A program made the position numbers and the translations under genes. The notes under the pieces were generated by a model. That model had not been told where the DNA came from. It did no database searches and saw only the letters and a program-made list of their open reading frames with translations. From Chloroflexota bacterium (GTDB lineage: Bacteria; Chloroflexota; Anaerolineae; J102), in NCBI GenBank assembly GCA_013151415.1, contig JAADII010000197.1, forward strand, positions 1 to 56,028: 56,028 nucleotides of DNA. Reading direction: 5' to 3'. Below are positions 23,902-30,025 of this stretch, piece after piece (position 1 is the stretch's first letter; every line of letters begins with the position of its first letter).

Positions 23902-24260
23902 CGCTGCATTTTAACGCGAAGACGGGATTCGGCAAAATCGAAAGATGAAACGAAGCGTCCCGCGCCTGCGACCATTTTCGAACCCACGGCCACGCCCACT
24001 GCACCCGCAACCCCAACCTCAACCTCAAACCGTCTCTCCTAATCCGGTTGAAACCGGTCAATGCTGGCCTGCGGTCGGAGCGCGGAGCTAAAACCAAAAC
24101 GCATTCCTCCGACCGTGCATTTTGCCAAGATCGGCTTTCATGGGTTATGATGTAATCGTCATGAAGTCCATCATTTTTCGATGAGATCATCGAGAAGCGC
24201 TGAGCCCAATCCTCATCGTCCATCGTCCTATCGTCCATTGTCTGGGCTCGAAACAAAAGT
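23902..24260. other. Noncoding region before the His attenuator, with short repeats
   Basis: No gene is supported. It contains AACCTC words at 24009-24030 and CATCGTCC/TATCGTCC words at 24213-24240, both members of families seen elsewhere in the window. The upstream part could carry the promoter for the his operon, but I found no convincing -35/-10 pair. Confidence 0.6.
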
Positions 24261-24266
24261 CAATCC

Positions 24267-24311
24267 GTGAAATCCGTATTCTATTTCCAAAGCAACCATC
24301 ATCACTTTTGA
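24267..24311 (+). CDS. hisL: Candidate histidine leader peptide (14 residues, three consecutive His)
   Basis: GTG at 24267 opens a 14-codon frame, MKSVFYFQSNHHHF, then TGA at 24309-24311. Three consecutive His codons lie near the end, followed about 50 bases later by a strong terminator and then hisZ. This is the layout of ribosome-mediated attenuation: stalling at His codons when charged tRNA-His is scarce. No SD precedes the GTG, and the first codons overlap an AATCCGTGAAATCCGT repeat-like sequence. The frame stays open upstream to an ATT at 24237, so the start is uncertain, but the His run and stop are not affected. Confidence 0.72.
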   Translation: MKSVFYFQSNHHHF

Positions 24312-24312
24312 T

Positions 24313-24389
24313 CGGGGAGAGCGGCTTTGCAAGGGCGCTTTGGCCGCGTTCGCCCCGCGAAGACTAGCGAACCCCGCTAGTCTTTTTTT
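24313..24389 (+). terminator. Transcription attenuator with mutually exclusive hairpins upstream of hisZ
   Basis: Terminator: AAGACTAGCG (24360-24369) pairs perfectly with CGCTAGTCTT (24375-24384), followed by seven T. Antiterminator: GTTCGC (24348-24353) pairs with GCGAAC (24367-24372), removing part of the terminator arm. Upstream hairpin: GGGG (24313-24316) with CCCC (24353-24356), and GCGGC (24320-24324) with GCCGC (24342-24346 region), blocks the antiterminator. A ribosome stalled on His codons at 24297-24305 would cover the first segment and let the antiterminator form. This is the 1:2, 2:3, 3:4 logic of amino-acid operons. Confidence 0.75.
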
Positions 24390-24401: not shown

Positions 24402-25607
24402 ATGACCACTCCAAGTCCATTCGATTCCTTCCCGGCCAAATCGCCGCCCGCGATCCCGCGCGGGGTGTCCGACTTTTTCGGCGGCGCGGCCGTGGCGCGT
24501 CGCGAAGCCGAGGCCACTTTGCGCGAGATGGCCCGACGTTGGGGCTATGTCGAGGTCATCCCGCCCACGTTCGAATACGCGGAAACCCTGGCCACCGAGG
24601 CCGGGCCGCAGCTTGCCGAGGAGCTTTACCGCTTTCTCGATCGCGACGGCCGCGCGCTGGCCTTGCGGCCCGACCTGACCATCCCCACCGCGCGGCTTGC
24701 CGGATCCAAGCTCTATGATCAGCCCCTGCCTCAACGTTTCTTCTACGCGGGGCCGGCCTTTCGCTATGAAGAGCCGCGCGCTGGGCGACAGCGCGAATTC
24801 TGGCAGGCCGGGCTTGAGTTGATCGGGGTTGCCGGCCCAGACGCGGACGCAGAAGTGCTGGCCTTTGCCGCGCGTGGTCTCGAGGCTTTGGCTTTGCCCG
24901 TGATTCGTTTCTCGCTTGGCCACCTGGGTTATTTTCACGGTCTGGTGGAGCATTTGGGGTTGACCTCGGTTGAAATTCGGGTCTTGCAATCCGCGCTCGA
25001 CCGCAAAAGCTGGGACGATTTGCAGGCTTTCGCAGACGCGCTCGATGCATCAGGAGCGGATCGAGAAGCCGTGTTGGGCTTGCTGGGCCTGAACGGGAAG
25101 CAGGGCGAAGGCGTGCTCGCTCGGGCCAGGAAATTGGCCCGGAACCAGAAAATGGCCGAGGCGGTGAACCAGCTGGACGCGGTGGAGAAGCGACTCGAAC
25201 ATTATGGCGTCAAACATTTTTTCGTCGTGGATCTGGCCGATGTGCGCGGCATGAACTATTACACCGGCATCACCTTCAAAGCCTACACCGATCAAATGGG
25301 CTTCTCCATCGTCAACGGCGGCCGCTACGACAATCTCGTCGGGCATTTCGGCGCGTCGCGGCCCGCGGTGGGCTGTGCGTTCTACCTCGACCGCATTCTC
25401 CTGGCCCGGGTGCGGCAGTCCGGCCCGCCTCCCGAACCCATGCCCGATATCCTCGTGCATCCCTGCCCTTGCGGCGGTTATGTGCGCCTGGCCGAAGAGG
25501 CCCGCGCGGCCGGCCGGGTCGCGGTCATTGCACTCGGACCCGAAGCCCCCCATGACGCCCCCACCACAATTCGTTGTTCGTGTGAGGCGAACCCTCCCAC
25601 CGCCTGA
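24402..25607 (+). CDS. hisZ: ATP phosphoribosyltransferase regulatory subunit
   Basis: The 401-residue protein is a class II aminoacyl-tRNA-synthetase paralogue: motif 2-like FFYAGPAFRYEEP and GRQREFWQAGLELIG, and RGMNYYTGITF with NGGRYDNL. It lacks the C-terminal anticodon-binding domain of HisRS and is followed by a short HisG, so it is HisZ, the partner needed for activity and histidine feedback. There is no SD; only 12 bases separate the attenuator T-run from the ATG. Ten bases separate it from hisG. Confidence 0.9.
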   Translation: MTTPSPFDSFPAKSPPAIPRGVSDFFGGAAVARREAEATLREMARRWGYVEVIPPTFEYAETLATEAGPQLAEELYRFLDRDGRALALRPDLTIPTARLAGSKLYDQPLPQRFFYAGPAFRYEEPRAGRQREFWQAGLELIGVAGPDADAEVLAFAARGLEALALPVIRFSLGHLGYFHGLVEHLGLTSVEIRVLQSALDRKSWDDLQAFADALDASGADREAVLGLLGLNGKQGEGVLARARKLARNQKMAEAVNQLDAVEKRLEHYGVKHFFVVDLADVRGMNYYTGITFKAYTDQMGFSIVNGGRYDNLVGHFGASRPAVGCAFYLDRILLARVRQSGPPPEPMPDILVHPCPCGGYVRLAEEARAAGRVAVIALGPEAPHDAPTTIRCSCEANPPTA

Positions 25608-25617
25608 ACGCGCCATC

Positions 25618-26244
25618 ATGCTCACCGTAGCTCTACCCAAAGGCCGGCTGACCGACGACGCCTTGACCTGGCTCAAGCGGGCTGACTGGCCTCTACCGCA
25701 AATGGATAATGATCGGCGTTTGGTCGCGCCTAGCCAGGATGGTCGTCTGAGTTACATCATGGCCAAGCCCATGGACGTGCCGGTTTTCGTGGAGCAAGGC
25801 GCGGCCGATTTGGGCATCGCCGGTCTGGACGTGCTCCGCGAGCGCGCGGCCGATGTGTACGAGCCGCTGCGTTTGCCTTTTGGCCATTGCCGGCTTTCGG
25901 TGGCCGCGCCCGCCAACCGACCTAACCGCCCCCTCAGGCTCGAAATCAACCCTCGCGTGGCCACCAAGTACCCGCGACTCACAGCCGAATATTTTCGCAA
26001 GCGAGGCATCTCGGCCGAACTCATCGTGCTCAGCGGCTCGGTCGAGCTTGGCCCCCTGGTCAACCTGGCCGATCTCATCGTCGATCTGGTTCAGACCGGC
26101 GCGACCCTGCGCGAAAACGGCCTGGTCGAGTTGCGCACCATTCTCGAATCTCAGGCCGTCTTGATTGTCAACCGCGCCAGCTACCGCCTGCATACGCGAG
26201 AAATCGATACGTTGATCGCATCCATCCGCACGATACTTCCATGA
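25618..26244 (+). CDS. hisG: ATP phosphoribosyltransferase catalytic subunit, short form
   Basis: At 208 residues it is the short HisG (HisG-S) without the C-terminal regulatory domain, which is why HisZ is present. It starts LTVALPKGRL (substrate loop), has GAADLGIAGLDVL, and the PRPP loop in LADLIVDLVQTGATLREN. It catalyses the first step, ATP plus PRPP to phosphoribosyl-ATP. The frame is open upstream inside hisZ, but MLTVALPKGR is the family start. Its stop overlaps the hisD start (ATGA). Confidence 0.95.
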   Translation: MLTVALPKGRLTDDALTWLKRADWPLPQMDNDRRLVAPSQDGRLSYIMAKPMDVPVFVEQGAADLGIAGLDVLRERAADVYEPLRLPFGHCRLSVAAPANRPNRPLRLEINPRVATKYPRLTAEYFRKRGISAELIVLSGSVELGPLVNLADLIVDLVQTGATLRENGLVELRTILESQAVLIVNRASYRLHTREIDTLIASIRTILP

Positions 26245-27602
26245 CCGATCTTTTCCCCATCTACGACCTTCCCACCGCCCGCGAGGGCATTCTCAAGCGC
26301 CGCGCCTGGGCCGAAACCGAGTATCCGGCAGCGCTTTTGCAGGGCGTCGAACGCATTTTTGGCGAGCCGCTAACGCCCGAACAGGCCGTGAGCCGCGTGC
26401 TGGCCGATATTCGCGATCGGGGCGAAGCGGCCTTGCGCGAATGGACCGCGCGCATCGACGGGTTCGAGATGCAGGCGTTCCGCGTCCCCCAGGATGAACG
26501 CCAGCGCGCGCTGAATGAACTTGACCCCGAATTGCGCGCGGCGTTGGAAAAGGCCGCACAGCGCATCGCGGATTTCCACGCTCGTCAGCCTGCACATTCG
26601 TGGCTGCATGTGGATGAACGCGAAGGCGCTCTTGGCCAGATCGTGCGGCCCCTGGATTCGGTCGGGGTCTATGTGCCCGGCGGAAGCGCGCCTTTGCCCT
26701 CGTCGCTGCTCATGGCCGCGGTCGTGGCGCGCGTGGCCGGCGTCGAGACCGTCATCGCCTGTTCACCTCCCGCCCGCAACAGCGGCCGCATTCCCGACGT
26801 GATCCTGGCCGCGGCCGAGATCGCGGGGGTCGATGCGCTCTTCGCGGTGGGCGGCGCGCAGGCCATCGCGGCCATGGCCTTTGGCGCCGGCGACATCCCC
26901 GCGGTGGATAAAATCGTCGGCCCCGGCGGACTGTTCGTGACCCTGGCCAAACGTCAGGTGTTCGGCGCCGTGGGCATCGACGGCCTGCCCGGCCCCACCG
27001 AGACCATTGTCATCGCCGACCACCAGGCCGACCCCGACCGCGTGGCCGCGGATTTGCTGGCCCAGGCCGAACATGATGTCCTGGCCACGGCCATCCTCCT
27101 CACCCCCAGCGCCGACCTGGCCCAGGCCGTGCAGATTCGCGTGGCCGAGCGCATGGAGCAGCTTGGCCGGGCCGAGACCATCGCCGCGTCGCTCACCACT
27201 CGTGGGGGCGCGGTCATCACGCCCGACCTGGACGCCGCGGTCGAGGCCGCAAACGCGTATGCGGCCGAGCATCTGTGCCTTTCGGTGGCCGACCCCTGGT
27301 CCCTGGTTCCCAAGATTCGCCACGCGGGCGGCATTTTCGTGGGCGAACACAGCTTCGAGGTGCTTGGCGACTACATTGCTGGGCCGTCGCACATCATGCC
27401 CACCGAGGGAACGGCCCGCTTCGCGTCGCCTCTGAATGTGGAGGACTTTGTCAAGCGCATCAGCCTAATCGCGCTCAATCCCGAGTCCAGCGCGGAGCTC
27501 AGCCGCATCGCCGCGCGCATCGCCGAAGCCGAGGGCCTGGACGCGCACGCGGCCGCTGCGCGCGAGAGGGTTCGTGACGACGCGGATAAGAAGCGCGGAT
27601 AG
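26241..27602 (+). CDS. hisD: Histidinol dehydrogenase
   Basis: The 453-residue protein has the HisD core PGGSAPLPSSLLM, GGAQAIAAMAFG, KIVGPGG, DGLPGPTETIVIAD, AEHD and HIMPTEGTARFAS with the zinc and catalytic His/Glu residues in expected places. It oxidises histidinol to histidine in two NAD-dependent steps. It overlaps hisG by four bases. Only three bases separate its end from the convergent BrnA antitoxin gene, which interrupts the operon order. Confidence 0.96.
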   Translation: MTDLFPIYDLPTAREGILKRRAWAETEYPAALLQGVERIFGEPLTPEQAVSRVLADIRDRGEAALREWTARIDGFEMQAFRVPQDERQRALNELDPELRAALEKAAQRIADFHARQPAHSWLHVDEREGALGQIVRPLDSVGVYVPGGSAPLPSSLLMAAVVARVAGVETVIACSPPARNSGRIPDVILAAAEIAGVDALFAVGGAQAIAAMAFGAGDIPAVDKIVGPGGLFVTLAKRQVFGAVGIDGLPGPTETIVIADHQADPDRVAADLLAQAEHDVLATAILLTPSADLAQAVQIRVAERMEQLGRAETIAASLTTRGGAVITPDLDAAVEAANAYAAEHLCLSVADPWSLVPKIRHAGGIFVGEHSFEVLGDYIAGPSHIMPTEGTARFASPLNVEDFVKRISLIALNPESSAELSRIAARIAEAEGLDAHAAAARERVRDDADKKRG

Positions 27603-27605
27603 CCG

Positions 27606-27938
27606 TCAGCGTTCTTCTTTCTCGGCGCTTCGGTAAATCGGCCCGCGTTCACGCAATTCGGATACGGCTGCATCCAGCACCTCGTTATCGACGCCCCGCT
27701 TGCGCAGGCTCTCGATAAGCATTTGGACTGTCTCTTTCTGTTGCTCCTGATGCAGTCGCTCCAGATCTGCACGCAATCCCTGGCCGATATAAGCTCGCAT
27801 TAAGGGCTGGTAGCCGGAAAAACCTCGAAGCGGCGCCACGCGTTTCAGGTCTTCCAGCACATCTTCCGGAATGCGTAAACTGATCATCCTCATGGGACGG
27901 TTTTTGCGCAGTCGTTTTTTCAATTCACTGGTTTTCAT
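27606..27938 (-). CDS. brnA: BrnA-like ribbon-helix-helix antitoxin
   Basis: The 110-residue protein has an RHH-type DNA-binding segment (MRMISLRIPEDVLEDLKRVA, residues 17-36) followed by a helical, charged tail. It overlaps the toxin gene's 3' end by 14 bases and is in the toxin-first order typical of brnTA. It should neutralise BrnT and repress the shared promoter. It is on the minus strand inside the plus-strand his operon, tail to tail with hisD. Confidence 0.8.
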   Translation of the reverse strand: MKTSELKKRLRKNRPMRMISLRIPEDVLEDLKRVAPLRGFSGYQPLMRAYIGQGLRADLERLHQEQQKETVQMLIESLRKRGVDNEVLDAAVSELRERGPIYRSAEKEER

Positions 27939-28221
27939 ATTCTAATTGCTCCTTACGCGTGGTTCGTCTTGCCGAGATGATTCTGATTGCGTCGTTTCGA
28001 GTAACATACACAACGTAGAGTAATTGCCAGGATGTGGTCAGTCCCACGATGGCATTTCGCACCTCTCCCTCGATAATATCTTCTTTGACGATAAGAAAGA
28101 ATGGATCGAAGAACACCTCGCAGGCAAGCTCAAATGAGACGCCATGCTTGCGCAGGTTCATTAGCGCTTTATCGGCATCCCATTCAAAACGTACGTCGTA
28201 CAAGACAAAGAATGTGTCCAC
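27925..28221 (-). CDS. brnT: BrnT family ribonuclease toxin
   Basis: The 98-residue protein has the BrnT signature FEWDADKALMNLRKHGVSFE, VFFDP and RIISARRTTRKEQLEYEN. BrnT is an RNase-fold toxin that cleaves mRNA when BrnA is lost. The start is GTG at 28221 (VDTFFVLYDV...), with later TTG possible. A promoter-like pair lies just upstream (see next entry), which would give an almost leaderless transcript. Confidence 0.88.
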   Translation of the reverse strand: MDTFFVLYDVRFEWDADKALMNLRKHGVSFELACEVFFDPFFLIVKEDIIEGEVRNAIVGLTTSWQLLYVVYVTRNDAIRIISARRTTRKEQLEYENQ

Positions 28222-28278: not shown

Positions 28279-29397
28279 ATGGACGAACGTAAGAGCGAAC
28301 GAATCCCAATGTCCCAGGCGATCCGCAAAGATGTGGCGCGGATGGAGACGTACGCGCCGGTGAAGCCTTTCGACGCGCTTAGCCGGGAGATGGGGCGACC
28401 GGCCGAGGACATCGTCAAGCTGGATGCAAACGAGAATCCTTATGGCCCCTCTCCTCGCGTGCGCGAGGCCCTGGCCGCGTATCCCTGGTATCATATATAT
28501 CCCGACCCGCAACAAACGCGGCTGCGCGAGGCTCTGGCCGATTATGTGGGCGTTCCGGCTGAGTATATTTTACCGGGCCACGGCGCGGATGAGCTTATCG
28601 ACTATCTCTGCCGTCTTTTTCTCATGCCCGGCGACGCCATCATCAACTGTCCGCCCACGTTCGGCATGTACAGCTTCGATGCGCGTCTCAGCGGCGGCGA
28701 GGTCATCGAGGTGTGGCGCCGCGAGGATTTCAGCCTCGATATCGGAGCCGTCGAGAAAGCCGTTCGGGAAAGCGAGCCCAGGCCCAAGCTGCTCTTTCTC
28801 ACCTCGCCCAACAATCCCGACGGCGGCCTGCTCTCGCACGTTGCCCTGCGCCGATTGCTCCGTTTGCCACTGCTGGTGGTCGTGGACGAAGCCTATATCG
28901 AATTCGCGGAGGGCGAGGGTTCGGTCGCGAGTTGGGTTCCCGAAACGCCTAATCTGGTGGTTTTGCGCACCTTTTCCAAGTGGGCCGGTCTGGCCGGGCT
29001 GCGTTTGGGCTATGGCATTTTTCCATTGGAATTGATGGAACATCTTTGGAAGTTCAAACAGCCGTATAATGTCAATGTGGCGGCCACCGCGGCCGGATTG
29101 GCCAGCCTGGAAGATTTGCCCCTGCTGCGCGAGCGCGTCGCGGCCTTGAAAAGAGAGCGCGACCGGCTGTATACTGAACTTGCCGCCATCCCTTATCTGC
29201 AACCCCTGGCCAGTCAGGCCAATTTTGTGCTCTGTCGCGTGGTGGGGCGCTCGGCCGCGGCCCTGCATCGAGCCTTGTTCAAGCAGGGCGTCCTCGTGCG
29301 CTACTACGATAAGCCCGGCCTGCGCAATTTCATCCGCATCAGCGCCGGACGACCGGAACAAACGGATCGGTTGTTGCAAGCGCTGGCCTCTCTTTGA
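28279..29397 (+). CDS. hisC: Histidinol-phosphate aminotransferase
   Basis: The 372-residue PLP enzyme has [38 protein letters not shown] and the lysine motif [14 protein letters not shown] (Schiff-base Lys). It transaminates imidazole acetol phosphate. Starts at 28279 or 28309 are both possible; neither has an SD. It follows the inverted brnTA pair, so it needs read-through past brnTA or its own promoter. The stop overlaps the next start (TGATG). Confidence 0.95.
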
Positions 29398-29642
29398 TGG
29401 AGATCGTCATGCGAGCATACAAGATTGAACAGATCGTTCCTGCAAACGGAACGTTGGAACTAAAGCAACTTCCTTTTGCACCCGGCCAACGCGTCGAGAT
29501 CATCATACTTGAACAGACGGATACAACAAAGCATGAAGCTGAAAACGCAAAAGAGAAAGATGATATTCTTATAGGGAGCGTTTTAGAGTATATTGATCCC
29601 ACCGAGCCCGTCGCCATTGAGGACTGGGAGGCGATTCAGTGA
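29397..29642 (+). CDS. Small antitoxin-like protein paired with a PIN toxin
   Basis: The 81-residue protein (start 29397, or MRAYKIEQ at 29409) has an N-terminal beta-rich segment (IVPANGTLELKQLPFAPGQRVEIIIL) like antitoxins that accompany VapC, and an acidic tail. It overlaps hisC's stop and the PIN gene's GTG start (GTGA), so all three are translationally coupled. Its DNA-binding fold is not certain; the pairing with VapC is the main evidence. Confidence 0.68.
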   Translation: MEIVMRAYKIEQIVPANGTLELKQLPFAPGQRVEIIILEQTDTTKHEAENAKEKDDILIGSVLEYIDPTEPVAIEDWEAIQ

Positions 29643-30025
29643 TACTTCTAGACACTCATATCTGGATTTGGTGGAAGAGCCGGAGTCAGAGACTGTCTTC
29701 CAAGGCATTGCGCATCATTGATGAAAACAAGAGAGACGACGGAGTTGGGATTAGCGTCATTTCCTGCTGGGAGATGGCAAAGTTAGTGGAACGTAAGCGA
29801 TTAACACTCACCATTCCTATCGAGACATGGATTGAGCAAGGCTTGGTTGGCCTGACTCTATTTCATCTAACGCCAGAAATAGCAATCGAGTCAACAAAGC
29901 TCCCTGGCGATTTTCACAAAGATCCCGCTGATCAGATTATCGTGGCCACAGCTCGTTTTCATGGATTGCCCTTGTTGACCGTTGATAGACGCATCCTGAG
30001 CTATCCATATGTGACTACGCTGTGA
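29639..30025 (+). CDS. vapC: PIN domain ribonuclease toxin, VapC family
   Basis: The 128-residue protein has the PIN acidic residues in order: LDTH (D5), [20 protein letters not shown] (two Asp) and VDRRIL. It is full length for the family. VapC cleaves tRNA or rRNA; target unknown. It uses a GTG start overlapping the antitoxin's stop and ends 29 bases before hisB, so it is likely on the his transcript. Confidence 0.87.

Follow-up and report, generated by a model that had tools for sequence, protein, structure and literature searches.

Histidine leader peptides preceding hisZ or the his operon are known from Firmicutes (Naville and Gautheret, 2010, PMC2965389; Ashniev et al., 2022, PMC9413887). 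Each comprises a short ORF with a run of 3–5 His codons, followed by attenuator and terminator hairpins, and alternative antiterminators have been reported (PMC9413887). The hisL leader of E. coli (RF00514) also carries a run of His codons and a terminator in front of a histidine biosynthesis operon, and it possesses an arm able to sequester that terminator. At the pyrBI attenuator and at terminator tR2 of E. coli, a nearby ribosome blocks the terminator without an antiterminator helix (PMC4824070). The first-pass annotation of the locus studied here regarded attenuation through a leader peptide as best known in Proteobacteria and some Gram-positives; it is indeed known in both, and the Firmicutes examples already include His leaders before hisZ. 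No description of His leader attenuation in Chloroflexota was found in the literature searched, although this search was not exhaustive and priority is not claimed.

The window, which is the whole 56,028-nt stretch of Chloroflexota DNA that was analysed, contains a his operon on the forward strand whose first gene is hisZ and not hisG as behind E. coli hisL. Gene identities were assigned by matches to NCBIfam models: hisZ, encoding the ATP phosphoribosyltransferase regulatory subunit (24402–25607, +; TIGR00443, E 4e-91, above cut-off), the short form of hisG, encoding ATP phosphoribosyltransferase (25621–26244, +; TIGR00070, E 4e-61), hisD, encoding histidinol dehydrogenase (26241–27602, +; TIGR00069, E 2e-147), and hisC, encoding histidinol-phosphate transaminase (28279–29397, +; TIGR01141, E 3e-97). 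The named relatives of the hisZ protein come from MAGs labelled Chloroflexota, Caldilineales and Caldilineae, which places the window in this lineage. Toxin-antitoxin genes both split and flank this operon, as the gap between hisD and hisC holds genes for a BrnT toxin and its CopG-like partner in reverse orientation (27606–28221, −) and a PIN-domain protein is encoded 3' of hisC (29394–30025, +).

Upstream of hisZ, the elements expected of a leader-peptide attenuator in the broad sense were found, namely tandem codons, a terminator, an operon for the same amino acid and an upstream promoter. The predicted sigma-70 promoter (TTGCCA, 18 nt, TATGAT) lies at 24122–24151 (+). The present leader peptide ORF, from GTG to TGA, occupies positions 24267–24311 (+) and its predicted product is MKSVFYFQSNHHHF. 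It includes the regulatory codons CAT CAT CAC at 24297–24305 (+; CAT24297, CAT24300 and CAC24303). The frame had been described as ending in three His codons and TGA; the His run is there, but a Phe codon stands between it and the stop, the end being HHHF-TGA. Hairpin A:B follows (24313–24357, +), with an outer stem CGGGG 24313–24317/CCCCG 24353–24357 and, according to the fold, an inner stem GCGGC 24321–24325/GCCGC 24343–24347 (+). The 1:2 pairing of the first-pass annotation, in which GGGG 24314–24317 faces CCCC 24353–24356 and the same inner strands pair, is thus present in the window. So are the intrinsic terminator GAAGACTAGCG-AACCC-CGCTAGTCTTT (24359–24389, +), with the seven T claimed for it at 24383–24389, and the hisZ ATG at 24402, 12 bases past the T run.

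An element absent from the first-pass annotation is a 118-nt dispersed repeat inside the leader ORF (24179–24296, +), composed of ATCGTCC units with a AATCCGTGAAATCCGT end. It gave 41 matches at E ≤ 0.001 in its own genome, mostly partial; several copies start with base 1 or 3 of the repeat, and one copy stops at base 116. The repeat now parts the promoter and a probable original leader start (ATG AAG TCC ATC ATT TTT, 24161–24178, +) from the His codons. When the flanks were joined without it, they read ATG AAG TCC ATC ATT TTT CAT CAT CAC TTT TGA and translated in frame as MKSIIFHHHF, with the ATG 9 nt past the −10 hexamer, a spacing as in relatives. Since the rejoined flanks give this frame and an ATG so placed, the repeat was very probably inserted within the leader ORF, where it would now supply the GTG start (24267) and most of the peptide. 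The strength of the attenuator in the window copy is, as a consequence, uncertain. It is conceivable, though we consider it rather unlikely, that the repeat has destroyed this copy, leaving a relic, and that the his genes are expressed by leaky read-through or from another promoter. The repeat does sit between the promoter and the His codons, and the GTG lacks a clear Shine-Dalgarno sequence and lies 115 nt past the −10, versus 6–37 nt for the leader ATG in most relatives. However, an in-frame ORF with all its His codons, the hairpin and the terminator have been retained, and no second promoter was seen near the leader.

The same layout of leader, hairpin and terminator was present upstream of hisZ in relatives. 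A covariance model built from 11 of these upstream regions gave 50 matches at E ≤ 5.2e-4 in 49 of the 396 genomes of the class, and one further match was obtained in another class of the same phylum, which makes 51 leaders in 50 genomes. Weak matches with E above about 1e-3 (L076–L078 and L098) were rejected as ordinary terminators, one of them placed after a tRNA-like sequence. The gene downstream of the leader is hisZ in 48 cases and hisD in two, the contig ending in the remaining one. In L015–L023, which are close relatives of the same family (genomes G001, G004, G012, G014–G019 and others), hisZ stands behind other genes or sequence without such a leader, which suggests that these genomes have lost or rearranged the attenuator.

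As a check, the first-pass annotation had proposed to look in relatives for conserved His codons and for compensatory changes in all three stems. The His codons were kept, 2–4 adjacent ones being found in 49 of the 51 leaders; the two without an adjacent pair are L095 (HLH) and L096 (YHF). The latter (positions 1716–1818, genome G151) stands before hisD as a diverged second leader in which the His run has degenerated and hairpin, terminator and promoter are preserved. An in-frame ATG or GTG start was seen in nearly all leaders, and the His codons stay in the reading frame while the stop shifts and the peptide remains open. Compensatory changes were found in the 1:2 hairpin and in the terminator, but the 2:3 helix (GTTCGC 24348–24353/GCGAAC 24367–24372), which does exist in the window, was seen only there and was not conserved in the relatives. 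In the 51-sequence alignment, two-sided changes affected all seven modelled pairs of hairpin A:B and six of the nine pairs of the terminator (13/16 altogether), and the terminator, a covarying stem followed by a T run, was present in all 51 leaders. Cells were paired in 98.5% of cases, and double-change cells numbered 132, against 30.2 ± 5.2 after shuffling; sliding the alignment by 1–3 columns left only 27–51% of cells paired. This alignment was fitted to the covariance model, which biases these figures somewhat favourably, but the swap test, which is alignment-free, agreed for both A:B (z −6.4) and the terminator (C:D, z −7.9).

Most leaders also have a near-consensus promoter of the form TTGACA-17-TATAxT directly upstream, and 90% of the promoter scores upstream of the relatives' leaders exceeded the 95th percentile of shuffles. 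In family f39 (L069, L070, L073, L083, L085, L089–L091 and L036), the ATG lies only 7–9 nt past a consensus −10 hexamer; the leader transcript is for this reason probably leaderless, so that the attenuator peptide would be translated without a 5' UTR. In family f31, the ATG is usually 26–30 nt past the −10 and a purine-rich sequence is often present before it, which suggests a Shine-Dalgarno sequence.

The conservation of His codons, promoter, hairpin, terminator and gene context strongly supports the ribosome-mediated His attenuation of hisZ put forward in the first-pass annotation. Peptide, hairpin A:B and terminator are established by sequence comparison among the relatives, and the leader is very probably a His attenuator. 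With somewhat less assurance, but still with good confidence, we infer that it acts as a leader-peptide transcription attenuator through which a shortage of charged tRNA-His would switch on transcription of hisZGD.

The first-pass annotation went further and presented a classical attenuator with three mutually exclusive segments, as in his/trp, in which a stalled ribosome would block segment 1 and segment 2 would sequester the terminator 5' arm. Mutual exclusion was contradicted by the structures themselves, as A:B and the terminator do not overlap and are compatible neighbours, placed side by side with a gap of 0–6 nt in the minimum-energy folds. A helix sequestering the terminator 5' arm was then sought by comparing duplexes with shuffles, by swaps between relatives and by family consensus folds from which the terminator 3' arm had been removed. 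In the best-duplex shuffle test, pairing to the terminator 5' arm had a mean z of +0.19 over the 51 leaders, whereas the six E. coli attenuators used as positive control (thrL, trpL, leuL, ilvL, pheL and hisL) were all negative (z −1.3 to −5.8, mean −2.8; hisL −2.9). The swap test gave z −0.5 to +0.9 for the mid × C combination, far from the values of the A:B and C:D controls, so co-evolution was absent, and it gave no sign that the terminator arm pairs with the 5' region or the His codons. A general antiterminator signal was likewise absent from the family consensus folds. Because the family tests were null while the six E. coli controls were positive, the 2:3 helix of the window looks accidental. 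In addition, a ribosome sitting on the regulatory codons does not mask segment 1, since strand A begins 9–16 nt downstream and stays free. Besides the 6-bp helix of the window, the classical scheme can draw on a strong alternative pairing in L014/L068 (GCTGGTC:GACTAGC, z −3.9; L068 alone −4.4 in a second run) and on a weak, borderline signal of family f31 in the swap test (p 0.04–0.06), and lineage-specific antiterminators such as these could escape the tests. For the leaders as a group, however, we judge it unlikely. An alternative pairing of strand A with the loop in family f39 (GAATCG:CGATTC in L089) was also considered and rejected, as it reached p 0.03 within f39 and not across the set. 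In families f36 and f39, the 5' arm of the terminator (GACTAGTTC, GACAAGTC) looks more invariant than the 3' arm, which keeps G-U wobbles; no second partner for this 5' arm was found.

The geometry of the leaders was measured on 48 of them. The first and the last His codon precede strand A by 16 ± 1.8 nt and 9 ± 1.9 nt, respectively, and strand B is separated from the terminator by a median of 1 nt (range 0–6). The stop codon lies anywhere between 7 nt before A and 25 nt into the hairpin, yet it always keeps a distance of 30 nt or more from the terminator stem. With A:B looped out (about 47 nt), the distance to the terminator becomes 14–28 nt from the first His codon and 8–22 nt from the last. 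In toeprint practice, the protection by a ribosome reaches about 10–12 nt beyond the A site. A value of about 10 nt is cited in PMC4824070. A:B should therefore stay folded, or at most fray, as long as the ribosome waits on the His codons, and melt when the ribosome moves on, so that A:B would be the structure of the starved state. It is probably the structure kept by the stalled ribosome, without an overlapping antiterminator.

These observations can be assembled into the following scheme. With enough histidine, the ribosome would pass the His codons and reach a stop that lies at strand A, within it or shortly beyond it; it would melt A:B while still at least 30 nt away from the terminator, which would fold and stop transcription. 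With scarce histidine, it would wait on the His codons with its front edge just before A, and A:B would stay folded, looping out about 47 nt and bringing the stalled ribosome to only 8–28 nt from the terminator stem. This proximity, perhaps aided by the abutting A:B, may prevent the terminator from closing, and the polymerase would then read through. If translation were absent, A:B and the terminator would both fold and transcription would stop. The proximity step is tentative, and we place it somewhat below an even chance. A nearby translating ribosome represses terminator tR2 in E. coli with a fitted threshold of 27 nt (PMC4824070), a value that belongs to that species, to another terminator and to unfolded RNA and that may differ for this leader. 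The repression vanished once translation was uncoupled (PMC4824070). The proximity scheme fits with these data in that the looped distance of 8–28 nt compares with the 27-nt threshold and the stop codon remains 30 nt or more away; it assumes that ribosome and terminator are effectively brought closer when a hairpin is looped out. At pyrBI and tR2 the ribosome approaches along the RNA, whereas here the hairpin would bring a stalled ribosome close. The scheme would explain the missing antiterminator helix, the two tight spacings and the wandering stop codon. Adjacent hairpins are not known to block a terminator.

The main role of hairpin A:B might instead be to pause RNA polymerase and keep it in step with the ribosome, antitermination being left to an unseen element. 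Hairpin pauses usually occur about 11 nt downstream of the hairpin, and at this distance from B the polymerase would have reached the end of the terminator 5' arm. However, a pause hairpin alone explains neither read-through under starvation nor the tight gap of 0–6 nt to the terminator, and this explanation seems improbable to us. Still more doubtful is an H-type pseudoknot, with the loop of the folded A:B hairpin acting as antiterminator by pairing with the terminator 5' arm. The topology permits it, and by eye GGGCGCT can be matched with AGCG in family f1, and TARCCGG with CTGGTTR in family f31, but the pairing of loop to terminator arm was no better than shuffled (mean z +0.10 ± 0.14) and did not co-evolve across the set. 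A His-specific T-box or another riboswitch in an untranslated leader can be practically dismissed: the his genes of some Firmicutes are under T-box control (PMC9413887), but Rfam searches of the leaders at the gathering threshold and at E ≤ 5 returned nothing relevant, with the RF00514 and T-box models unmatched, and the His codons hold their frame while the stop moves and the peptide stays open.

Compared by description, the attenuator proposed here resembles the His leaders of Firmicutes in its adjacent His codons within a short ORF and its two hairpins, and differs in that no alternative antiterminator is detectable and in belonging to another phylum. It shares with E. coli hisL the His codon run, the terminator and the operon, but not the arm able to sequester the terminator. 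The novelty is therefore in the phylum and the architecture and not in the principle, the leader being attenuator-like yet failing to show the antiterminator helix of the classical systems. As a possibility held with caution, these leaders may represent a class of amino-acid attenuators without antiterminator helix, in which a "ruler" hairpin sets the stalled ribosome against the terminator. The finding extends translated-leader attenuation of histidine synthesis to about fifty species of a deep and mostly uncultured phylum. It raises the mechanistic question of how a terminator is overruled without a competing helix, which the conserved spacings make testable, and the covariance model would serve the annotation of his operons in Chloroflexota.
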